This document shows positions 14,597 to 49,410 of a DNA stretch of 64,000 nucleotides, in pieces. Numbering within the stretch: the first letter of the stretch is position 1; each line of letters begins with the position of its first letter. Location of the stretch: contig NZ_CP129107.1 in assembly GCF_030406725.1 (NCBI RefSeq), positions 620,001 to 684,000 of the forward strand. Reading direction: 5' to 3'. The notes beneath the pieces are model-generated. The model saw nothing but the letters and a program-made list of their open reading frames with translations. It had not been told where the DNA came from and searched no databases. Source of the stretch: Alteriqipengyuania flavescens (GTDB taxonomy: Bacteria > Pseudomonadota > Alphaproteobacteria > Sphingomonadales > Sphingomonadaceae). The position numbers were made by a program, and so were the translations under genes.

Positions 14597-15781
14597 CTAG
14601 ATACCCATTTCCGCCTTGATCGCGGCGAATGCATCCAGCGCGTGGTCGAGGTCGTCGGTCGACAGCCCGCTCGACATCTGGGTGCGGATGCGGGCCTTGC
14701 CGTGGGGCACCACGGGATAGCTGAACGCGGTGACGTACACGCCCTTGCCGAGCGCCTTTTGCGCGAATTCGGCGGCGATTTTCGCATCGTAGAGCATGAT
14801 CGGGATGATCGGGTGTTCGCCGGGCAGAGATTCCAGTCCGATCCGCTCCAGCCCGGCGCGGAAATGCGCGGCATTGGCGAACAGCCGTTCGCGCGCCGCG
14901 CCGTCTTCCGCGATGTCCAGCGCCTTCAGCGCGCCGCTGACCACGGCGGGCGCGACGGAGTTGGAAAAGAGATAGGGGCGCGAACGCTGGCGCAGCAGCG
15001 CGACCACTTCCTTCTTCGCGGACGTATAACCGCCGCTCGCCCCGCCCAGCGCCTTGCCCAGCGTGCCGGTGGTGATGTCCACCCGGTCCATGCAGCCGCG
15101 GAATTCGTGCGTGCCGCGCCCGGTCGCGCCGAGAAAGCCCGTGGCGTGGCAATCGTCGAAATGCACGATTGCGCCGTATTTCTCGGCCAGGTCGCAGATC
15201 TCGTCGAGCCGGGCGATGTAGCCGTCCATCGAGAACACGCCGTCGGTGGTGATCATCTTGAAGCGCGCACCGGCGGCGTCGGCGGCCTTCAGCTGTGCTT
15301 CCAGGTCCGCCATGTCGTTGTTCTTGTAACGATAGCGCTGCGCCTTGCAGAGCCGCACGCCGTCGATGATGCTGGCGTGGTTGAGCTCGTCGGAAATGAT
15401 CGCGTCTTCGGCGCCCAGCAGCACTTCGAACAGGCCGCCGTTGGCATCGAAGCAGGACGGGTAGAGGATCGTATCCTCGAAACCGAGGAACCGGCTGAGG
15501 CGCGCTTCGGCTTCCTTGTGCAGGTCTTGCGTGCCGCAGATGAAGCGCACCGACGCCATGCCGTAGCCATGCGTGTCGAGCCCTTCGCGTGCCGCATCGC
15601 GCAGCCGCTCGTCGCCCGCCAGACCGAGGTAGTCGTTGGCGCACAGGTTGATGACGCGGCGCTCGCCCAGCGCGACCTGCGGCCCTTGCGCAGAGGTGAT
15701 CTCCCGCTCGTGCTTGGTCAGGCCCGCTTCCTCGATATCCTTAAGTTCGCTGGCGAGGTGGTCGTAGAATGTCGCGTCCAT
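14597..15781 (-). CDS. kbl: glycine C-acetyltransferase (2-amino-3-ketobutyrate CoA ligase)
   Basis: This 394-aa PLP enzyme of the alpha-oxoamine synthase family cleaves 2-amino-3-ketobutyrate with CoA to glycine and acetyl-CoA, the second step of threonine catabolism. Features are [11 protein letters not shown], the [14 protein letters not shown] block, the [11 protein letters not shown] Asp that contacts PLP, and the lysine region [14 protein letters not shown]. The ATG at 15781 overlaps the tdh stop by 1 nt; the longer upstream reading lies over tdh. Length is normal. Confidence 0.96.
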
Positions 15782-16812
15782 CAGATGTCCTCCCAGTTCA
15801 GCACGACCTTGGTGGCCGACCCGTCGAGCATGGCGGCAAAGCCCTTCTCGAACTCGGTTGCCGGCAGGCGGTGGGTGATGATCGGCGTCAGGTCCAGCCC
15901 GCTCTCGATGAAGACCGACATCTTGTACCAGGTCTCGAAAATCTCGCGGCCGTAGACGCCTTTCAGCGTCAGCATGTTGAAGATGACCTTGTGCCAGTCG
16001 ATCCGCACGTCGCCTGCGGGCAGGCCGAGGATGGCAATCTTGCCGCCGTGGCACATGTTGTCGACCATGGAGGCAAAGCCCGCCTCGCTGCCCGACATTT
16101 CCAGCCCGACGTCGAAGCCTTCGGTCATGCCGAGGTCCTTCTGCACGTCCGCCAGCGATTCTTCGGCCACGTTCACCGTGCGCGTCGCGCCCATCGTCTT
16201 GGCCAATTCCAGCCGTTCGGGGTTGAGGTCGCTGACCACGATATGCCGCGCGCCGGCATGCTTGCAGACTGCCGCCGCCATCAGCCCGATGGGCCCCGCG
16301 CCCACGATCAGCACATCCTCGCCCAGAATGTCGAACTGCAGCGCGGTGTGGACCGCATTGCCGAACGGATCGAACAGCGATGCGACGTCGAGGTCGATGC
16401 CTGGATTATGCAGCCACAGGTTCGCGGCGGGCAGGCTGAGATATTCGGCAAAGGCGCCCTGCCGGTTGACGCCGATCCCCTGCGCGTTGGCGCACATGTG
16501 GCGGCGCCCGGCCATGCAGTTGCGGCAATGGCCGCACACGACATGGCCTTCCCCGCTGACGATCTGGCCGACCGAATAATCCTTCACGTTGCTGCCGATC
16601 TCGGCAATCTCGCCGACGAATTCGTGGCCCACCACCATCGGCACGGGAATGGTCGCCTGCGCCCATTCGTCCCATTTCCAGATGTGCATGTCGGTGCCGC
16701 AGATGGCAGTGCGCTTCACCTTCACCAGCACGTCGTTGATGCCGACTTCGGGCTTGGGCACGTCCTCCATCCACAGGCCGGGTTCTGCGCGGGATTTGAC
16801 GAGGGCTTTCAT
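15781..16812 (-). CDS. tdh: L-threonine 3-dehydrogenase
   Basis: This 343-aa zinc-dependent medium-chain dehydrogenase oxidises L-threonine to 2-amino-3-ketobutyrate, the substrate of the following kbl product. Zinc ligands are in [10 protein letters not shown] and GHEFVGE, with structural Cys in [15 protein letters not shown], and the Rossmann motif [12 protein letters not shown] follows. The tdh-kbl pair is the canonical threonine-degradation operon. A palindrome resembling a LacI-family operator lies 15 nt upstream of its start. Confidence 0.97.
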
Positions 16813-17676: not shown

Positions 17677-18552
17677 ATGGATGTGATCGGACCCGTCAGC
17701 CAGACCTTCATCAGCCAGCGCACCAGATTGCATTACGCCGACTGGGGCAATCCGGACGCGCCGCCGCTGATCCTGCAGCACGGCGGGCGCGACCATTGCC
17801 GCAGCTGGGACTGGGTGGCGGAGGAACTGCGCGAAGACTGGCACGTGATCTGCCCCGACCTGCGCGGCCACGGCGACAGCGAATGGACCAACACCGGCCA
17901 TTACCCGATGACCGCCTATCTGTATGATTTCGCGCAGCTGGTCCACCAGCTCGAATTGGCGCCCGTGACCATCGTGGCGCACTCGCTCGGCGGCAATATC
18001 GCCATGCGCTATGCCGGGATGTACCCCGACAACGTGCGCAAGCTGGTGGCGATCGAGGGGCTCGGCCCCAGCCCGAAGATGCAGGCGAAGATGGCGGAAA
18101 AGCCGTGGTTCGAACACCGCACGGACTGGATCGCCAGGAAGCGCGAAGCCTCCGCCCGCCAGCCGAAACGCTATGCCACGTTCGAGGAAGCGGCGAGCCG
18201 GATGCACGAGGCGAACAGCTATCTCAGCCGCGCGCAGGCCGAATACCTCACCCGCCACGGCGCCATCCGCAACGAGGACGGCACGTGGAGCTGGAAGTTC
18301 GATCCCCACCTCCACGCCTGGCCGCCCGACGACGTGACGCAGGCGCAGGTGGAGGAGCTATGGACCCGCATCACCTGCCCCACGCGCCTCGTCTACGGCA
18401 ACGACAGCTGGGCCAGCAATCCGGCGGAGGATGGCCGCATGGCCCACTTCGGCGACAACGTGACCCTCACCAACTACGACCGCGCCGGCCACTGGGTCCA
18501 TCATGACCGGTTCGATGATTTCGTGGCGGAGGTGAGGGAGTTCGTCGCTTAA
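17677..18552 (+). CDS. alpha/beta fold hydrolase
   Basis: This 291-aa cytosolic hydrolase shows the oxyanion segment LQHGGRDHCRSWDW, nucleophile elbow VAHSLGGNIAMRYAG and catalytic His in AGHWVHHDRFD. The acid is likely in the GNDSWAS strand. It resembles carboxylesterase or haloalkane-dehalogenase-like members, but the substrate cannot be inferred. It is the third gene of a tight plus-strand cluster after DUF6356 and the thioesterase. Downstream the sequence turns AT-rich. Confidence 0.9.
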   Translation: MDVIGPVSQTFISQRTRLHYADWGNPDAPPLILQHGGRDHCRSWDWVAEELREDWHVICPDLRGHGDSEWTNTGHYPMTAYLYDFAQLVHQLELAPVTIVAHSLGGNIAMRYAGMYPDNVRKLVAIEGLGPSPKMQAKMAEKPWFEHRTDWIARKREASARQPKRYATFEEAASRMHEANSYLSRAQAEYLTRHGAIRNEDGTWSWKFDPHLHAWPPDDVTQAQVEELWTRITCPTRLVYGNDSWASNPAEDGRMAHFGDNVTLTNYDRAGHWVHHDRFDDFVAEVREFVA

Positions 18553-18653
18553 ATGCTTTGATCATAGCTTTATGCATTTGTGAAAAATTTCCTTTAACCA
18601 TTTTTATTTGAGCGGGCATTCGTTAGTCTGGCCGGAACGGGCGGGTAGTTTAT

Positions 18654-19955
18654 ATGATTCAAAACAGATTTGTCGCTGTAATACTCGCGGTCACGCTGGT
18701 CGCCTGTGGTGACGAAGGCAGTTCCTCGCCGCCGGTTGCCCAGCCGACAGCCACCCCCGCGCCGCCCCCGCCTCCCCCTCCCACCTACAGCGAGGAAGTC
18801 GCCCGCTTGAAAGCCGCGCTGGCAACGGGCTGCGCAATACAAATTGGCGACATCGCGCTCACGGTTTCGTCCCGCTTGCGTGAAAGCTGGATTGCCGATG
18901 CGCAATTCGTCGAGCCGGATGACGAACGGATAACCATGCTTGGCGGTCGGCACACACGGGCATCCGGCTACCCCTATCGTGAAACGCTGCTCAACCAGGC
19001 GGTCACCACGCGCGAGCCGGTTTATGACGACGCGGGTTACACTGCCGCAAGATACGGCCTCAACGACGGCATCGAATTCGTCCTGCCCGCCGGGCAATCG
19101 CGGTTCGAGCTCGTCTCCATCGACGGCGGCACCCCCGGAAACCTCATCATCGAAATCGACGGTGTGCGGACCAATCTTGCCGGTTACCCGAGCGGACAGA
19201 CATTCTCGGGAAGCTGGCTCTACAACCTGGTCGAAATACCGGAATCGCAGTCAGCACGGACAGTCCGGGTCTGGCTGCGCAACCGTGCTTTCGGAGGATT
19301 GCGGCTGCCCGCGGGTGAAACCCTGGGAGTAAAGCCCGACGGTACGCCCGCTTCGATGGTGTTCATCGGCGACAGTATTTCCGAAGGATCGAACGCCAGC
19401 CACGTCGTCAACACGTGGCCCATGCACGTAGCTGCTCGCTTGGGCATCGGTAATCCGGTCATGGCGTCGATCGGCGGCACGGGTTATTTGCAGCGCAGGG
19501 GCCAACAGTTCAATTTCCTCGACCGGCCGGAAGATGTGCTGGAAGCGGTAGCCGGCGGACCACCGGACGCTGTCGTCATTGCCGGTGGCCTGAACGATTG
19601 CCGGTCCGACGGCACGGGCTTCACCCCGCAGGAAATCGGCGATGCGGCCGCAAGCTATTTCACCGGACTGAGAAACGCCGCGCCCGATATGGTCATTTTC
19701 GTGCTGGGGCCATTCTCCTACAATGGCGGTGTGCCCTATCCGGCCCATCTTGCCGAATGCCGCGATGCGATTTTCGCTGCGGCGGCGGGTGTTGAGGCGA
19801 CTTACACAATCGACGTGTCAGGATGGTTGCCATCCGGAGACCAGTCTGCGTTCTTCAATCTCGCCATCGACGGCGTCCATCCCAACGATTACGGGCACTC
19901 GGTCTATGGCGAGAAGGCAGCCGCCGCGATGGGGGAAATTATCGCAGGCTTGTGA
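18654..19955 (+). CDS. SGNH/GDSL hydrolase-type esterase, lipoprotein
   Basis: This 433-aa exported protein has a lipobox (LVAC at about residue 18) and a Pro-rich linker (a run of eight or more prolines). A roughly 150-residue N-terminal jelly-roll-like region precedes a C-terminal SGNH hydrolase domain. Block I FIGDSISEGS, block II Gly in SIGGTGY, block III GGLNDC and block V DGVHPNDYG supply the four catalytic positions. It probably deacylates an envelope or exogenous polysaccharide or ester. The 100 nt upstream are AT-rich and contain TTAACCAT (18594-18601), a CtrA half-site-like sequence. Monocistronic. Confidence 0.9.
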   Translation: MIQNRFVAVILAVTLVACGDEGSSSPPVAQPTATPAPPPPPPPTYSEEVARLKAALATGCAIQIGDIALTVSSRLRESWIADAQFVEPDDERITMLGGRHTRASGYPYRETLLNQAVTTREPVYDDAGYTAARYGLNDGIEFVLPAGQSRFELVSIDGGTPGNLIIEIDGVRTNLAGYPSGQTFSGSWLYNLVEIPESQSARTVRVWLRNRAFGGLRLPAGETLGVKPDGTPASMVFIGDSISEGSNASHVVNTWPMHVAARLGIGNPVMASIGGTGYLQRRGQQFNFLDRPEDVLEAVAGGPPDAVVIAGGLNDCRSDGTGFTPQEIGDAAASYFTGLRNAAPDMVIFVLGPFSYNGGVPYPAHLAECRDAIFAAAAGVEATYTIDVSGWLPSGDQSAFFNLAIDGVHPNDYGHSVYGEKAAAAMGEIIAGL

Positions 19956-20028
19956 GCGTTGCTGAGCGTGTGGTGACTACCGAAGAAACCATTTTCCTAC
20001 TCTCGCCAAATCTGCCCTACCCTGCCGG

Positions 20029-38189: not shown

Positions 38190-38708
38190 TCAGCCCCCTC
38201 GTCCGGAGCGCTCCAGCGGCTCGATAAAGGTCTGGCTCTCGATGCGCCAGCGCGTCGCCTGCCCTTCGTTCGTTTCCGGCTCCAGCACCCTGTTCATCAC
38301 CAGCGAGCCGCGCCGGGGCGGCGTGTCGGCCTTCGCCGCGTCGGTCAGCGTGCCCGTGACGGTGCAGCTGGGCATGCCCTCGCCGGTAGAGACTTCCGGT
38401 TCCTCCCACGCGATCTGCGGCGTGGTATAGTCGGCCAGCAGCGCTTCCAGCCGGGCGCCGTCGATCACCGGATCGTCCCACAATAAGGCGGCGCGCTGAT
38501 ATTCACCGGAGGACAGCGCCTCGAAATAGAACTGCGCCGCGGTCGCGCATTTCTCGCTGCGCAGCGCGGCCTGGTCGGCGGGCGCGATGGGCACCGGCGG
38601 ATTGGGACCGGACAGGCCCGGAGCCTCCTCGCCGGTCGCCGGTGTTTCGTCCGCGTCCCCGCAGGCGACGAGCGCCAGCGGCGCGAGCATCATGGCAAGC
38701 AGCCTCAT
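38190..38708 (-). CDS. lipoprotein of unknown function
   Basis: The 172-aa product starts [18 protein letters not shown], with lipobox LVAC at about residues 13-16, followed by a Pro/Ala linker. The folded part starts at about residue 45 ([29 protein letters not shown]). It looks like a small NTF2-like or lumazine-binding-like alpha+beta domain, but I cannot assign a family. The ATG overlaps the argB stop by 4 nt; a 33-codon upstream extension lies in argB and is discarded. Confidence 0.82.
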
Positions 38709-39595
38709 GCCTCCCTCCTGATCAGCGTACCCGCGCCGCGCGCGGTGAAGAATTCGAGCAGCATCGCGTGCGGCACCCGCCCGTCGAGCACAACCGCAGC
38801 ATCGCATCCTGCCTCCACGGCGGACACGCAGGTTTCCAGCTTCGGGATCATGCCGCCGCTGACCGTGCCGTCCTCGCGCAATTCCGCGATCCGGGCAGGG
38901 GTCAGGTCGGTGACGAGCTCGCCGTTCTTGTCGAGCACGCCCGCCACGTCGGTCAGCAGGAACAGCCGCGCCGCGCCGATGGCTGCAGCGATCGCGCCTG
39001 CCATCGTGTCGGCGTTGATGTTGTAAGTGTGCCCGTCCAGCCCGCGCGCGATCGGCGCGACAACCGGGATCATGCCCGCGGCACTGGCCGTGTCGAGCAG
39101 TGTGGTGTCGACTGATACGGGATCGCCGACGAAGCCGAGGTCGAGCGCCTTTTCGATCAGACTGTCGGGATCGCGCGTCGTGCGCTGAAGCTTCTCCGCC
39201 GTCACCAGCCCGCCGTCCTTGCCGCTGATGCCGATGGCCTTGCCGCCGGCGTTCGCGATCCAGCCGACCAGTTCCTTGTTGATTGCGCCCGACAGCACCA
39301 TTTCGGCGACCTTGGCCGTCGCCTCGTCCGTCACGCGCAGCCCATCGACGAAGCTTGTCTCGACCCCAAGCTTGCCCAGCATCTCGCCGATCTGCGGGCC
39401 GCCGCCGTGGACCACGACCGGGTTGATGCCGACAGCTTTCAACAGGACGATATCCTCGGCGAAGTCGCGGGCGGCATCGGCGTCGCCCATCGCATGGCCG
39501 CCGTATTTCACCACGAAAGTGCGCCCGGCATAGCGCTGCAGGTAAGGCAGCGCCTCGATCAGCACCTGTGCCTTGGCGATGCTTTCCCGGCTCAC
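38705..39595 (-). CDS. argB: acetylglutamate kinase
   Basis: This 296-aa amino-acid kinase phosphorylates N-acetyl-L-glutamate in arginine synthesis. [11 protein letters not shown] supplies the phosphate-binding Lys and [18 protein letters not shown] the acetylglutamate site, and [16 protein letters not shown] and [10 protein letters not shown] the ATP site. The N-terminal helix ([19 protein letters not shown]) resembles arginine-inhibited hexameric ArgB, so feedback inhibition is possible. It begins 1 nt after the upstream transporter stop. Confidence 0.97.
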
Positions 39596-40253: not shown

Positions 40254-40327
40254 CGCGCCAGCCTTAGCGGCGGGGGCGCGCGGGGGGAAGTGGCCGCGCG
40301 GCGCGGGTGGTGATAGTCCCCCGAACC

Positions 40328-40918
40328 ATGGCCCGCCGCCCTTCCCGCACCCCGCCCCGTCGCAATCCCGGACCGCCCCGCTTCGATGCCAGGTGGAACC
40401 GCCGCCGCGCGCGGCAGCGCCGGCTTGGCGACTGGTGGCGCAGCGGGCGCTGGCTGCTGCTGGTCGCGGCCATCGTGCTGGCGTGGCGGATGCTGGAAAA
40501 CACGCTCGGCCCGCCGCGCAGCTGGACGCAGAGCGACGTGCGCGTCGGCGTGTGCGGCGAAGGGCGCAGCGCCGTGTGCGCGCTCGACGGCGATACGCTC
40601 GCCATCGGCTTCGGGCCGCAAGGCCGCCGCATCCGTCTCACCGGCTTCGACGCGCCCGAACGCGGCGGCGCCTGCCCGGCCGAGAGCGCGAAGGCCGAAG
40701 AGGCGACGCGCGCCCTCGTCCGCTGGCTCAACGCCGGGCCGTTCGAGTGGGATGGCGGCGCCGATCCCCCGCGCGACCGCTACGGGAGAGAGCTGCGCAG
40801 CGTCCGCCGTACCGGCGCCGATGGCCGCGTGCGCCTGCTCGCCGATCACATGGTAGAAGCCGGGCTTGCCGAAGGCTCCGGCTGGGCTGCATCCGCCATC
40901 GACTGGTGTAGGACCTGA
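40328..40918 (+). CDS. thermonuclease (SNase)-family protein with N-terminal TM anchor
   Basis: The 196-aa protein starts at ATG 40328 (MARRPSRTPPRRNP); a GTG 21 nt earlier is possible. An Arg-rich N-terminus and one TM helix (RWLLLVAAIVLAWRM) precede an SNase-like OB domain: LDGDTLAIGFGPQGRRIRLTGFDAPERGG, then RDRYGRELRSVR. Asp and Arg positions of the staphylococcal nuclease site are recognisable. It probably acts as an anchored, envelope-side nuclease, although many such proteins are uncharacterised. Divergent from the argB operon. Confidence 0.88.
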   Translation: MARRPSRTPPRRNPGPPRFDARWNRRRARQRRLGDWWRSGRWLLLVAAIVLAWRMLENTLGPPRSWTQSDVRVGVCGEGRSAVCALDGDTLAIGFGPQGRRIRLTGFDAPERGGACPAESAKAEEATRALVRWLNAGPFEWDGGADPPRDRYGRELRSVRRTGADGRVRLLADHMVEAGLAEGSGWAASAIDWCRT

Positions 40919-41286: not shown

Positions 41287-42186
41287 CTACCGCGAAACCA
41301 GCCGTTCGAACACGCCCAGCATCAGGTCGCGCGATCCTTCGTAATAGGGGCGCTGGATTTCGGTATCGCCCGGCTTGTGGTAATCCGGGTTCTCGCTGCC
41401 GTCCTCGAATTCCTGGCTGATGCTGGCCACGGTGAAGCCTTCGCGCCGGTACGCCTCGTGGTCGGTGTTGGGATAGGTCGTCACCAGCAGCGAGATCGGC
41501 AGGCCTTCCGCCACCTCCAGGTAGAGCGCGGTCAGGTCTTCGGAATTGGAATCGAATTCGATCACCCCGTCGCCGTCGCTGTCCCAGCCGACCATGTCGA
41601 TATTGTTCATGGATTCGAGAGGGATGCCCGATTCCTTCCAGCGCGCGGCGTTCACCCGCGCGCCGACCAGGCCGACCTCTTCCTGGTCCAGCATGACGAA
41701 ATGCACGGTCGCGGTGCGGCGGGGCATGGCGGCAAGCCTGCGCGCGACCTCCAGCACGATTTCCACCCCGCTGCCGTTGTCGTCCACGCCGGGGCTGCCC
41801 GGCACGGTGTCGTAATGCGCCGCGATGACGATGTGGCGCTGGCCAGAAGAAGTGGGGTTATCCGCATTAATGTCGGTCGCGGGCAGCACGCCGACGACGT
41901 TGGAGCCGGTGTATTCCGTCGCCACGCCGCGGCGGGTGAAACTGGTAGTATATGGTTGGTATTCGACCGTCAGGCCGATCCGGATCATGTCCGCCGCGAG
42001 GAGAGTGCGCGCCACGTCCCGCTGCTCGGGCGAGGCCCGCTCGGTCATCAGCGTAAAGCAAGGCTCCACGCACCGCGTGATCGGCGCGTCGTCCTCTGGC
42101 GGAGCAGGCGTGCTGACCGGCGCGGGCGTGCAGGCAGCGGTGGCTGCGAAAAAAGGCACGATACGAACTAGGGAGGATTTATTCAT
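41287..42186 (-). CDS. M28 family zinc peptidase, lipoprotein
   Basis: This 299-aa lipoprotein starts MNKSSLVRIVPFFAATAACTP (lipobox TAAC). Metal ligands of a co-catalytic di-zinc aminopeptidase are visible: His in IVIAAHYDTVPGS, Asp in GVDDNGSG, Glu pair in MLDQEEVGL, Asp in NNIDMVGWD and His in DYHKPGD. It probably trims peptides in the periplasm. The start is chosen over an upstream ATG because it places the signal at the N-terminus. The 72 nt upstream are AT-rich, like the neighbouring OLD-family gene. Confidence 0.92.
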   Translation of the reverse strand: MNKSSLVRIVPFFAATAACTPAPVSTPAPPEDDAPITRCVEPCFTLMTERASPEQRDVARTLLAADMIRIGLTVEYQPYTTSFTRRGVATEYTGSNVVGVLPATDINADNPTSSGQRHIVIAAHYDTVPGSPGVDDNGSGVEIVLEVARRLAAMPRRTATVHFVMLDQEEVGLVGARVNAARWKESGIPLESMNNIDMVGWDSDGDGVIEFDSNSEDLTALYLEVAEGLPISLLVTTYPNTDHEAYRREGFTVASISQEFEDGSENPDYHKPGDTEIQRPYYEGSRDLMLGVFERLVSR

Positions 42187-42258
42187 CACCGTAGCCTTAA
42201 AGGTTTGACCGAAACTAACCAGAGAAACAAATAGTTTCATGGCGTTATAAACATATCC

Positions 42259-43953
42259 CTAGTTATTTGCTAATCTTATTCGAGAAACAATTTCATCCAA
42301 CGGCTCCCGAACCTCTGTTCTAAGTGCGCTGGGCATTTCTATTAGCTTTTGGGCAATCTTCATTTTATCAAAACCGGCTTCCACAAGCGAACCGTCGTCC
42401 CTACGAAAATTCAACGGCTTCGAGTATCTGTTGCGCCCGCCGCTTAAGCTTGCTGCTTGGGGATGGACAGCAAGCACAGCAGCCTCGCGCGCTTCGAAAG
42501 TGTAGTAGTTTTCAATTTCTCGCCCGTCTGTTACCCAGAAAAAGCCATCAACCGCCTCCAACTCTTGTTTAATTCTCAGTTTTGTGGGCCGAATCTGCGA
42601 ACTCGCTGACCCCAAGTCACTATCACAAATTAAAGCGAGATTTCTGCAGAGCGGCAAAAGGGAAATGAACTCATCAAACATTCCGTCGCTCGCACTCAGC
42701 CGACTGAGCAGCTTCCCGCCATAGAACATTATTGAATAGTCGATACCTTCCCGCAGAGAGGAATCGACCCCCTCGATCCAATTTTTCAAGTAAACTCGGT
42801 CCGATGGTCCTTCGACCCAAATGACATAATTTGATTGCAACAGGTCGCTAGCTTTGAAGCCTAGATCATGACAGGCTGTAAATTTCTCCTGTCTGGTTAC
42901 CAGAGGCTTGATCCGAGCGGCGGAGTCGTGGCTCACACCGAAGACAGCAGCTTCTTTAGTTTCAATTATTGAAGACGAATGAGTTGTAATAAAGTACTGG
43001 GCTGTCGTTTCATTGACGATAAATTCCATTAACCTTCTTTGGAGATGTGGGTGTAGATGGGTTTCCGGCTCTTCGAGCAGGATTGTCTCATCATCACGTA
43101 AGATCAGTTCCGACGCGAGCATAAAAACTTCATGCACGCCAGAACCCAAAGCTTCGATTGGAAGGAATGCCCCGCCGGATCGCACATTTATAGTTTGCTT
43201 ATCATTGGGAATCTCAATCTCAACATCGTCATCTGACAATATTCTGCCAACAAATTTTCTGAGCTTCTCAAATTTTTGCTTTAGCTGTTGTTGGTCATAA
43301 GGTGGATGGGCGAGATCGGCCAGACGATCAATAAGATGTTCACCCCCAATGTCGTGAGGCAACTCGGCATGAAATTCCTCTAACCTCGTTGGAAGCTGCC
43401 TAAAGGAAGGGATGAAGTAAGGGCGTACCGAAAATCGCGCCGCTTCCAATAGCTTGTTCAGTATACCCGGATACCACTGATTGATCGAACCTCCGCTCAT
43501 ACCCGTGAGGCGGTTCCAAAGAACGTGAACGTCGCGACTGTCTTGAGGATTTAGTGTCGGCACTTCGCCGGCATAAAGGCCGCCGCGCGAAATCGACTGC
43601 GTAGTAATCGGTAATCGAAAGATTTTATTAAGATGATCGAAGCCAATTCGACCTAATACATCTATATTGGCGGAGTCATACGACGCCAATACAGGCCCCT
43701 CAGGAAGGCCAAACTCCCAATCAAAGGTGGACAGTCGATCACCAGACCTAGGTAAGTCCACCCCAGACAAAACAATGGCTTGAGTGCGGCCAGGCTCGAT
43801 CGTTGGCGAGATTACTTTCTCAATATAACGCAATACGTTTGATTTGCCCGAATTGTTTCGGCCAATTAAAATGTTTACTCTTTTAAGAGGACCGACCCAC
43901 TGTCCGGCGGCGTCGAAGTTCCGAAATGCCTTTACTTCGAAGCCACGCAACAT
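42259..43953 (-). CDS. OLD-family ATP-dependent endonuclease (AAA ATPase + TOPRIM)
   Basis: This 564-aa protein has an SMC/RecF-like ATPase split by an insert: Walker A GRNNSGKS (31-38), signature ALGSGVHEV (268-276), Walker B ILLEEPE (291-297) and H-loop His325. A C-terminal TOPRIM nuclease domain has WVEGPSD (Glu381), ICDSD (Asp444, Asp446) and GREIENY. This is the layout of class 1 overcoming-lysogenisation-defect (OLD) nucleases, many of which act against phage. GC content is clearly below its neighbours, indicating transfer. It starts 5 nt after the nrdB stop, with GGAG formed by the nrdB 3' end 8 nt from its ATG. Confidence 0.9.
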   Translation of the reverse strand: MLRGFEVKAFRNFDAAGQWVGPLKRVNILIGRNNSGKSNVLRYIEKVISPTIEPGRTQAIVLSGVDLPRSGDRLSTFDWEFGLPEGPVLASYDSANIDVLGRIGFDHLNKIFRLPITTQSISRGGLYAGEVPTLNPQDSRDVHVLWNRLTGMSGGSINQWYPGILNKLLEAARFSVRPYFIPSFRQLPTRLEEFHAELPHDIGGEHLIDRLADLAHPPYDQQQLKQKFEKLRKFVGRILSDDDVEIEIPNDKQTINVRSGGAFLPIEALGSGVHEVFMLASELILRDDETILLEEPETHLHPHLQRRLMEFIVNETTAQYFITTHSSSIIETKEAAVFGVSHDSAARIKPLVTRQEKFTACHDLGFKASDLLQSNYVIWVEGPSDRVYLKNWIEGVDSSLREGIDYSIMFYGGKLLSRLSASDGMFDEFISLLPLCRNLALICDSDLGSASSQIRPTKLRIKQELEAVDGFFWVTDGREIENYYTFEAREAAVLAVHPQAASLSGGRNRYSKPLNFRRDDGSLVEAGFDKMKIAQKLIEMPSALRTEVREPLDEIVSRIRLANN

Positions 43954-43958
43954 TCATT

Positions 43959-45023
43959 TCACTCCGCCGCCACACTTTCGCTCGAACCACTCTCCCCGAA
44001 CATGTCCGGGCCGTCGTCCACCGCGTCTTCCTCGTTCGCGGCCTTGGCGCTGCGGCGCTTGTCGAAGCTGGACCACACGTCGTTCCAGTTGCCCTTCGTC
44101 GCGCCCTTCGAATATTCGGTCGCGCGGGTTTCGAAGAAGTTGGCGTGCTCCACCCCGTTCAGCAGCGGGGTGAGCCACGGCAGCGGGTGGTCTTCCACCA
44201 TGTAGATCGGCTGCAGGCCCAGCTGGCCCAGGCGCCAGTCCGCGATGTAGCGGATGTAGCGCTTGATTTCCTTCGCCGTCATCCCCGGCACCGGACCCGC
44301 GTCGAACGCCAGGTCGATGAAAGCATCTTCCAGCCGCACCGTCTTCTGGCACATGTCCATGATGTCTTCCTTCACGGACTTGGTCAGGCAGCCGCGTTCC
44401 TCGCAAAAGGCGTGGAACAGCTTGGTGATGCCTTCGCAGTGCAGGCTCTCGTCCCGCACGGACCAGCTGACGATCTGGCCCATGCCCTTCATCTTGTTGA
44501 AGCGCGGGAAGTTCATCAGCATGGCGAAGCTGGCGAACAGCTGCAGCCCTTCGGTAAAGCCGCCGAACATGGCCAGCGTGCGGGCGATATCCTCGTCATT
44601 GTCGACGCCGAATTCCTGCAGGTAGTCGTGCTTGTCCTTCATCTCCTCGTATTCGAGGAACATGCCGTATTCGCTTTCCGGCATGCCGATCGTGTCGAGC
44701 AGGTGGGAATAGGCGGCGATGTGGACCGTTTCCATGTTGCTGAACGCGGCCAGCATCATCTTGACCTCGGTCGGCTTGAACACGCGGCCGTATTTCTCGT
44801 GGTAGCAATCCTGCACCTCGACATCGGCCTGGGTGAAGAAGCGGAAGATCTGGGTGAGCAGGTTGCGCTCGTGATCGGACAGCTTTTGCGCCCAGTCGCG
44901 GCAATCCTCGCCCAGCGGCACTTCTTCCGGCATCCAGTGGATCTGCTGCTGGCGTTTCCAGAAGTCGTAGGCCCACGGATATTCGAAGGGCTTGTAGGTC
45001 TTTCTGGCTTCGAGCAACGACAT
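43959..45023 (-). CDS. nrdB: ribonucleoside-diphosphate reductase class Ia, beta subunit
   Basis: This 354-aa di-iron radical subunit houses the tyrosyl radical used by NrdA. Iron-ligand segments are visible (FTQADVEVQDCYHEKYG, NMETVHIAAYSHLL with a Tyr at the radical position, and SVRDESLHCEG). The C-terminal tail is acidic (EEDAVDDGPDMFGE) and would dock on NrdA. The start MSLLEARKTYKPF follows family usage; the longer reading is discarded. The OLD-family gene follows after 5 nt. Divergent from the small gene at 45208. Confidence 0.96.
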   Translation of the reverse strand: MSLLEARKTYKPFEYPWAYDFWKRQQQIHWMPEEVPLGEDCRDWAQKLSDHERNLLTQIFRFFTQADVEVQDCYHEKYGRVFKPTEVKMMLAAFSNMETVHIAAYSHLLDTIGMPESEYGMFLEYEEMKDKHDYLQEFGVDNDEDIARTLAMFGGFTEGLQLFASFAMLMNFPRFNKMKGMGQIVSWSVRDESLHCEGITKLFHAFCEERGCLTKSVKEDIMDMCQKTVRLEDAFIDLAFDAGPVPGMTAKEIKRYIRYIADWRLGQLGLQPIYMVEDHPLPWLTPLLNGVEHANFFETRATEYSKGATKGNWNDVWSSFDKRRSAKAANEEDAVDDGPDMFGESGSSESVAAE

Positions 45024-46918: not shown

Positions 46919-49189
46919 TCAGAACTCGCCGCCGATGCCGATGGTGGCGCCGGTGTTGTCGCCGCCGGAGTGGCTGACGCTGGCGGAGATCACCAGCGGC
47001 ACGTCCACGTTCAGCCTGTGCGCCAGGCCCAGGCTGAAGGCATTTTCGTCCCGGAAGGTCGCGCCCTTGGCAAGGTAGCTCGTCCGCCCCGGTGCACTCG
47101 GTATGGAGGGGTCGGCCTGTGCCATCGCGGCCGCGACACCGGCCCGCATATCGCTGTCGAGCTCGTCGATCCTGAGCCCCAGCACGTCGACTCGCCCTTC
47201 CAGCGCCGCGAACTGCATGTCGCTGACCGCGGCGATGGACTGGACCTGCGCCCGCACGGTGGCGACCGAGGCGGCGGTCGCGGCGTTGGAGACGCCGAGC
47301 GTGCCGTTGCCGTCGATGGTGACGAACTGCTCCTCGCCCACCTGCGCCGCGTCGGAGGCTGCAATGTCGCCGATGGCGACCGAGCTGCCCGCACCGCCCA
47401 GCATCACCTGATCGTCAGCGGTGGTGGTAGCGGCAAAGCCGACGGCCGTGGCGCGGCCGTTGGCAGCATTGGACAGGCGCCCCACTGCCGTCGCCCCGCC
47501 GCCGGTCGCCGAGGATTCGCGCCCGATGGCAGTCGCGTTGCCGCCGGCCGTCGCCTGGTAACCGACCGCCGTTGCCGAATTGCCCGACGTGCTGGTGAAC
47601 GCACCCACCGAAGTGGAGCCGATCCCGCCGACCGTGGCCGAGCGACCGACCGCCGTGCCGAAGCGCGCACCCGCATCGGCAACCGAACCGATCGCCGTCG
47701 CATTCTCGCCCGTAGCCTGGGCCCGCAGGCCGATCGCCGTGGCGGATACCTGGTTCGCCAGTGTCTCGCGGCCGATGGCCACGCTGTTTCCGGCCAAGGC
47801 CTGCGTGTCCGCGCCAAGGGCCACGGCAGCCAATCCGATAGCCTGGGCGCCAATTGCATCGAGATCGTCGCCATCCCCGCCAAGAGCAAGCGCGGCAAGC
47901 CCATTCGCCACGCTGGCATTACCGCCTGCAAAGGCGCTTTCGCCGGTGGCGCTGGACTCACGCCCCATCGCCAATGCTCAAAAACGTCGGCCGCTGCATA
48001 AGACCCGAGCGCGGTTGCCCCCTCACCCGCAGTGTCGCTGCCGCGCCCAATAGCAATCCGCGCCCGAGCCGTCGCTCGTCGATAAATAGCCTATCGCGAT
48101 TGCTGTCGACGAATCCGCAAGGACGGCTGCCGTTTGCCCGATGGCGATTCCGTAACTCGACTGCGATTGCGCCTGGTAGCCGAGCGCAAGCGAATGGAAA
48201 CCTGTCGCCCGAGAAGTGACGCCGAGCGCCATGCTCGTGTCGCCGGAAGCCAGCGAGTCGAGACCCAACGCGATAGCGCCGGCGCCACTGGCCGACGCGC
48301 CGGAATCGCTCGCGTTTGACCCGTCTGCACCGATCGCAATCGAGTTTTCCCCGCCGGAAAAACTGCGAGCGCCGACAGCGATTGAATTGGCGCCGGTCGC
48401 GTTGGCGTTGGCTCCGACTGCGGTGGCGGTGTCTGCACCCGCGATCGCCTCGTTGCCGAGCGCCGTCGCTTCGGAGAAATTGGCGGTCGCCTGTTCGCGG
48501 ACGGCCGTCGCCTGGAAGCCCTGCGCTTTCGCTGCTTCGCCGAGCGCCGTGGATTCGCCGCCGCTCGCGTCGGATTGCGCGCCGAGCGCCGTAGCACCTC
48601 CCACCCCGGTTGCCTGCGCGTTTTCACCGACCGCCGTGGCGGATGCCTGCGAAGCATCGCTGTCGCGGCCGATCGCGATGCTGCCGGTCGATGCGGCCCG
48701 GGCGTCTTCGCCGATGGCGATCGATCCCGCGCCCTGCGCGCGCGCTGCGATCGTGTCGAGATCCCCACTGTCGTCGCCGCCGATGGCGACAGCCCCCTGG
48801 CCAGTGGCGCTCGCCCGGTTGCCGAGCGCGACCGATCCGGCCTGCGTCGCTTCCGCGGCATAGCCGAAGGCGGAGCTCGCCCCGGTCCCGCGTGCACTGG
48901 CGAACGATCCGACGGCCGTCGATTGCCCGCCAGTAGCTTCGGAGCTCGCGCCCACGCCGACCGAATTGAGCCCCGAAACGAGGGCATCGTCACCGCAGGC
49001 CACGTTGCTTATCTCGAATTCCGAGTCCGCCCCCAGGTCGGTATCGACATTGCTGTCGGCGTTGCCGTCGTTGTTGGTGTCGAGCAGGCAATCGTCGGCC
49101 CGCGCCTCCTGCGTCGGCAGCAAGGTGAGGCCCGCAGTGGTCGCGGCCCCCGCGAACAACGCGGCGCGAAGCATCGAAGTCTTGGTCAT
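46919..49189 (-). pseudogene. YadA-like trimeric autotransporter adhesin, interrupted by two compensating frameshifts
   Basis: A signal peptide (MTKTSMLRAALFAGAATTAG...QEARAD) is followed by over 30 YadA head repeats of the AIG/AVG/ATA type (GSIAIGRDSDASQ, NSIAVGARSFSGG). A short coiled-coil stalk (VRAQVQSIAAVSDMQF) and a C-terminal YadA membrane anchor (YLAKGATFRDENAFSLGLAHRL) end the protein. The frame has in-frame TGA stops at 48023-48025 and 47978-47980. Between them the +1 frame continues the repeats (IAIGRGSDTAGEGATALGSY). One extra base (GCGGATT at about 48058) and one missing base in the A-run at 47980-47984 explain it. Net frame is kept, giving 756 aa if repaired. Confidence 0.7.
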
Positions 49190-49410
49190 TGGTGTTCCCC
49201 CAGAATTGACATCCGGGCGGGCGACTTTGCGACTCGGCGAACGGACTGATGCGGGCGAGCGTAGCGCCAAGTTCGGCGGCGCGGTTGTCTTTATGCGACA
49301 ATCTGCGCGGCGAAGACGCAGGATTTCGCGTTTATTTCCTAGGAATTGGAAATTTCGGTCACTTCCGCGCCCGAGGCGGACCGCGGCGCTTCAAGGACAG
49401 CGCACAGCAA

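Follow-up and report, generated by a model that had tools for sequence, protein, structure and literature searches.

It is well established that defence genes cluster in hotspots at core sites (PMC10250203, PMC10121019, PMC9122126), and such hotspots have been used for finding new immune systems. In P. aeruginosa, the two hotspots cDHS1 and cDHS2 have median sizes of 26 and 6 kb, are flanked by tRNA or tmRNA and contain numerous mobility genes. The same study also mentions 'replacement' islands that carry short, unrelated cassettes (PMC10250203). Among the OLD nucleases, the class 1 layout has been defined in PMC10568477. Here we describe an OLD-family gene that lies directly behind nrdB, together with the content of the same site in related genomes. 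The window (the whole stretch of DNA that was analysed, 64 kb in length) is part of a complete 2.72-Mb genome, which its closest named nrdB relatives indicate to be of Sphingomonadaceae/Erythrobacteraceae type, and the features around the gene are as follows.

42259..43953, minus strand: OLD-family ATPase-TOPRIM gene, AT-rich slot cargo, 564 aa (ORF, Pfam, homologue alignment, composition)
43954..43968, minus strand: junction, made of the nrdB 3' end GGCGGAG, the stop codon TGA and a 5-nt spacer (sequence)
42187..42258, minus strand: AT-rich 72-nt leader from the OLD stop to the likely M28 start, right edge of the islet (39% GC)
43959..45023, minus strand: nrdB, class Ia ribonucleotide reductase small subunit, fixed left wall of the slot
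41287..42186, minus strand: M28 peptidase with native-like composition (start placed at MNKSS by judgement; longest ORF from 42240)
40307..40918, plus strand: conserved gene beyond the variable segment, 'snase' (label read from the sequence, without a Pfam match; synteny)
38705..39595, minus strand: argB, conserved right anchor (synteny)

The OLD reading frame is intact, with a GC content of 47.6% and a GC3 of 48.1%, against a GC3 of 82-88% in nrdB, M28, argB, folD and nrdA. The lowest-GC 1,695-bp stretch at the gene has 46.9% GC, compared with 60.5% for the lowest such stretch elsewhere in the window. An earlier note on this DNA, made from the letters alone, had described the gene as far more AT-rich than its neighbours, placed directly behind nrdB without mobility genes, with the AT-rich stretch extending over the 72 nt ahead of the M28 gene. 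Our results agree on all these points: the OLD start codon follows the nrdB stop codon after a gap of 5 nt (GGCGGAG-TGA-AATGA-ATG), the leader is as AT-rich as described, and no mobility gene adjoins the OLD gene. The purine-rich end of nrdB is placed like a Shine-Dalgarno sequence for the OLD ATG and is a putative ribosome-binding site.

The predicted OLD protein matched the Pfam families AAA_21 and AAA_15, and the Pfam TOPRIM model gave no match to it; the best PADLOC matches were the AriA and GajA models, which cover the ATPase and reach at most into the beginning of the TOPRIM. Residue conservation was assessed with an alignment of 14 homologues, which located the following motifs.

43840..43863, minus strand: Walker A GRNNSGKS, residues 31-38 (G31, N33, N34, G36, K37 and S38 invariant in the 14 homologues)
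43048..43149, minus strand: ABC signature-like LGSGVHE (269-275) and Walker B LLEEPETHLHP (G270, G272, E294, E295, E297 and H301 invariant)
42505..42828, minus strand: TOPRIM domain with catalytic E381, D385, D444 and D446, plus T475/E481/Y483 (invariant in homologues; strand pattern in the model)

Walker A, the signature, Walker B, the His-switch and the four TOPRIM residues E381/D385/D444/D446 are all invariant in the alignment, which bears out the split ABC ATPase and the TOPRIM with Glu381, Asp444 and Asp446 named in the earlier note. Its assignment to the class 1 OLD layout, with ATPase and TOPRIM in one chain encoded by a solitary gene, also stands. Structure prediction, which that note had proposed, yielded an AlphaFold model of moderate confidence (pLDDT 69, pTM 0.56) in which the TOPRIM strand pattern is present; its best fold matches are the retron Eco8 effector and GajA, which at this model confidence serve as support only. 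Judged from its sequence, the protein has the class 1 layout and forms a distinct branch.

Homologues with 33-39% identity occur in about two dozen viral contigs as well as on plasmids of Burkholderia, Vibrio, Ruegeria, Rhodococcus and Arthrobacter. The plasmid and viral homologues that were inspected are lone genes with no constant partner, and the viral ones among them are more AT-rich than their own contig. On two P2-like viral contigs (L229 and L235), a homologue adjoins a P2-type portal gene, the same surroundings as at the classical old locus of P2. In P2, old is located close to cos at the genome end, and the portal gene Q starts just past cos. The identity to P2 Old over the alignment is 18%. 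Close homologues are rare, being present in 2 of 385 alphaproteobacterial genomes including the window's own (E <= 1e-60); a protein search found them in very few of 101 related genomes, and at nrdB in none. The comparison of presence and absence that the earlier note had suggested thus gave a uniform answer: none of the relatives examined has the gene at the nrdB site, and for this reason the OLD gene is, as judged from sequence comparison, an acquired islet. The condition that the note had set for refuting this, namely conservation of the gene with normal composition behind nrdB in all relatives, does not hold. The same note had spoken of a one-gene islet. Acquisition is upheld, but the M28 peptidase is also without a clear orthologue (none found in 60 relatives, with 37% over 127 aa as the best match), so that 'one-gene' may understate the unit.

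The M28 ORF (41287-42240, minus strand) encodes a probable lipoprotein-like N-terminus, and its composition is native-like. The conserved gene order is nrdA ... nrdB, the variable segment, a small conserved gene, argB, yggT, folD and marC. In the window, a 4.4-kb stretch separates nrdA from nrdB and includes a split YadA-like trimeric adhesin (46919-49270, minus strand; ORFs 48023-49270 and 46919-47974), whose intervening head-repeat sequence is readable in another frame, indicating either a degraded gene or sequence errors. A milder second GC dip (about 60%) was seen at 18000-20000, around ORF 18654-19955, a putative lipoprotein/esterase-like gene.

We gathered 58 nrdB loci, almost all one per genus, and 80 further loci from named species, giving 132 non-redundant loci, of which 125 had enough flank. 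Note that the named-species set was chosen by nrdB similarity to the window and is biased to its relatives, and that the slot borders rest on GC content and a simple ORF picker. The 3' side of nrdB is a defence cargo slot in Sphingomonadaceae including Erythrobacteraceae, holding one or two AT-rich genes at once. An AT-rich segment of at least 450 bp directly follows the nrdB stop in 79 of the 125 non-redundant loci of the family and in 29 of 53 one-per-genus genomes. Mean GC content drops by 9 points right at the nrdB stop, remains depressed over about 900 bp and is normal by about 2 kb. The GC content of the first 150 bp is lower than that of the locus by at least 8 points in 55% of loci; the corresponding figures are 0% for the final 150 bp of nrdB and 2-9% at distances greater than 2.2 kb. 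A GC dip in the first 300 bp was found in 48% of loci behind nrdB and in 9% behind nrdA. Measured against their own GC, the control genes nadB, thiolase and metX (names read from the sequence) gave 0-9%, compared with 30% for nrdB by the same measure, which understates the nrdB dip, nrdB being GC-poorer than its genome. Behind argB the dip is confined to the first 300 bp, where the conserved yggT lies; a control gene at 14597-15784 was left out, having too few same-family loci. In other families of the order, a comparable sustained dip was seen in 1 of 20 loci, and the nrdB genes of these loci do not have the C-terminal tail of the family. The site has the fixed flank and the content variable between relatives that define a core-gene hotspot. 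The earlier note had presented a lone oddity: the gene is odd, but it is not alone, as the site is recurrent with contents that differ in nearly every genome.

The slots contain 128 ORFs of at least 90 aa in 111 clusters, and the genes recognised by Pfam and PADLOC are mostly defence genes. They include NACHT and STAND-type AAA proteins, a DRT4 reverse transcriptase, Pycsar (PycTM plus PycC), TIR, SIR2, AIPR, Abi_alpha, Abi_2, FRG, Schlafen AlbA_2, a RelA/SpoT-like protein (PDC-S33) and a Panacea antitoxin with its partner, as well as type II restriction-modification (a C5-methylase with a NotI-like or NaeI nuclease, and an MT-A70 methylase with a BglII-type nuclease). A second slot OLD is unrelated to the window OLD (20% identity). 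About a third of 60 scanned slot proteins, a set that favoured larger ORFs, have no family match. At a PADLOC threshold of 1e-10, 177 families were matched by 88 slot proteins and a single family by 87 proteins taken from farther down these loci; the slot tally is dominated by methyltransferase models, and only its contrast with the downstream control was used. Both PADLOC and Pfam thus indicate that slot content is enriched in defence genes over the neighbouring genes. Defence-rich content is partly expected of any AT-rich accessory gene set, and the novel claim therefore rests on the location.

Eight Aurantiacibacter loci represent eight different slot states. The comparison was made between species, and the turnover observed is accordingly one between species. 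Behind nrdB in four loci of different lineages, one and the same MT-A70 methyltransferase occurs, with 76-84% identity (L070:8519-9169, L081:3178-3852, L157:7799-8476 and L208:8140-8790), with BglII-like nuclease partners that are mostly divergent. Three AAA/STAND-type ATPases of 421-443 aa (L104:7759-9087, L114:2127-3425 and L188:7341-8603), two of them with weak TniB similarity, possibly represent a recurring slot family. Six slot proteins of 283-441 aa without a Pfam or PADLOC match (L148:8107-9096, L164:8119-9441, L173:8159-9475, L158:8119-8967, L076:3149-4186 and L068:8037-9011) are candidates for new defence genes.

Between Croceicoccus pelagius and C. gelatinilyticus, nrdB is 97% identical up to the stop codon, the next 890 bp or so are unrelated (a WYL-domain protein in one species and an Abi_alpha protein in the other), and homology resumes at one sharp point (+899/+890) with 93% identity. 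The same border pattern was seen in L082 and Blastomonas natatoria (L186), in which the right edge is the stop codon of a convergent gene. A left border fixed at the stop codon across many genera, at a highly conserved nrdB end (GCGGCGGAG in 75 of 132 loci), would suit an attachment site of small mobile elements that integrate site-specifically at the nrdB 3' end, with a recombinase encoded elsewhere or lost. We consider this unlikely, as the right borders depend on the lineage and are often found where the next gene ends or has its promoter. Moreover, no integrase, transposase or other recombinase was recognised among the scanned slot genes, no IntI was seen among slot genes, no convincing direct repeats join the slot edges in six loci, no tRNA lies in or beside the slot, and no Rfam RNA was found in nine loci; the slot accordingly lacks the marks of a site-specific mobile element, namely an integrase or transposase in the scanned genes and attachment repeats in the six loci. 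Cargo probably enters instead by a rare illegitimate event and would then be swapped by homologous recombination in the conserved flanks, without a dedicated recombinase. The conserved flanks (nrdB protein is 81-93% identical across genera) would permit such an exchange.

The first slot gene lies on the nrdB strand in 64 of 76 cases (84%; binomial p=1e-9), and 27 first slot genes start within 15 bp of the nrdB stop. The sequence GCGGCGGAG encodes the C-terminal AAE of nrdB and plausibly doubles as a ribosome-binding site; GGAG occurs within the last nine bases of nrdB in 102 of 132 loci. Many occupants leave no room for a promoter or terminator before them, and GCGGAG forms the end of nrdB. 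Transcription of the occupants by read-through from nrdB is therefore probable, and close ones would often be translated from the nrdB end with GCGGAG as the ribosome-binding site. A simple terminator scan behind nrdB and behind the cargo found too few T-run hairpins to be informative. Defence genes are, in general, frequent among transferred AT-rich genes, and the slot might be nothing but a neutral permissive gap between convergent or operon-end genes, where defence genes accrue as commonly transferred genes with no coupling to nrdB. The 12 of 76 first occupants on the opposite strand are in keeping with such a gap, but the strand bias, the many starts within 15 bp of the stop and the lack of the pattern at other core-gene ends of the same family are not, and we hold this explanation to be possible but doubtful. 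We attach a similarly low likelihood to the stronger idea that the slot has been selected as an expression site, where immunity genes are made in step with ribonucleotide reductase. If it were true, expression of the immunity genes would increase upon disturbance of DNA synthesis or dNTP pools, as in phage infection, and the family would maintain one exchangeable immunity cartridge that is linked to its supply of dNTPs.

As for the OLD protein itself, its defence function is suggested by its family and context. It would most likely work by itself, as a TOPRIM nuclease under ATP control that responds to phage infection by cutting nucleic acid, and the most likely outcome, by analogy with the family, is that the phage is blocked or the cell is killed. 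A role other than defence, or a phage-derived remnant, seems very unlikely to us: a cell-cycle role is reported for an archaeal OLD protein (PMC12796447), and E. coli YbjD does not need its TOPRIM for the anti-phage phenotype (PMC13261556), but the sparse and patchy distribution of the window OLD, its plasmid and prophage homologues, the retention of all catalytic residues and the sharing of the slot with defence genes point to defence. Taken together, it is probable that the defence slot behind nrdB at present holds the OLD gene as a co-transcribed cargo that is exchanged by recombination and encodes a stand-alone anti-phage nuclease.

A full-text literature search, which had most subscription literature outside its reach and leaves novelty unproven, found no nrdB-linked hotspot, and 'nrd' is absent from the main text of the hotspot papers examined. 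The nrdB slot is a compact plug-in site for immunity genes that is apparently unreported. It is short, easily located, nearly free of passengers and occupied in more than half of a large, widely sequenced family. Because the slot is short, well occupied and nearly passenger-free, its genes without a match are good candidates for new one- or two-gene defence systems. The site also raises the question of why it lies behind nrdB and whether its occupants are expressed with nrdB.

Compared with known systems, the window OLD resembles the class 1 proteins (P2 Old, T. scotoductus OLD and E. coli YbjD) in being a solitary gene of similar length with an N-terminal ABC ATPase and a C-terminal TOPRIM, and the likeness to P2 extends to the two P2-like prophage homologues beside a portal gene. 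It differs from them in its low identity to P2 Old (18%) and its chromosomal slot behind nrdB, and its nuclease activity is putative. Gabija GajA (class 2) and the retron Eco8 effector (class 3) share the ATPase-TOPRIM order and are the best fold matches, but their sequence identity to the window OLD is low. Gabija itself was rejected, as no GajB UvrD-like helicase is adjacent to the window OLD, and so was a retron, as there is neither an adjacent reverse transcriptase nor an Rfam match in the locus. AriA of PARIS AriA/AriB is the best PADLOC match with the ATPase covered; the window TOPRIM is in the same chain, and an AriB-like neighbour was not seen. As a site, the slot shares with P. aeruginosa cDHS1/2 the fixed core flanks, the highly variable defence content and the low GC (PMC10250203), but it spans only about 0.5-3 kb with mostly one or two genes, and RNA and mobility genes were not seen. 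With the E. coli defence hotspots (PMC10121019) and the P2/P4 hotspots (PMC9122126) it has in common a defined site with exchangeable defence modules. The E. coli chromosomal hotspots are mostly integrating elements with a median occupancy of 8%, whereas the nrdB slot is occupied in about 55-63% of loci across dozens of genera.
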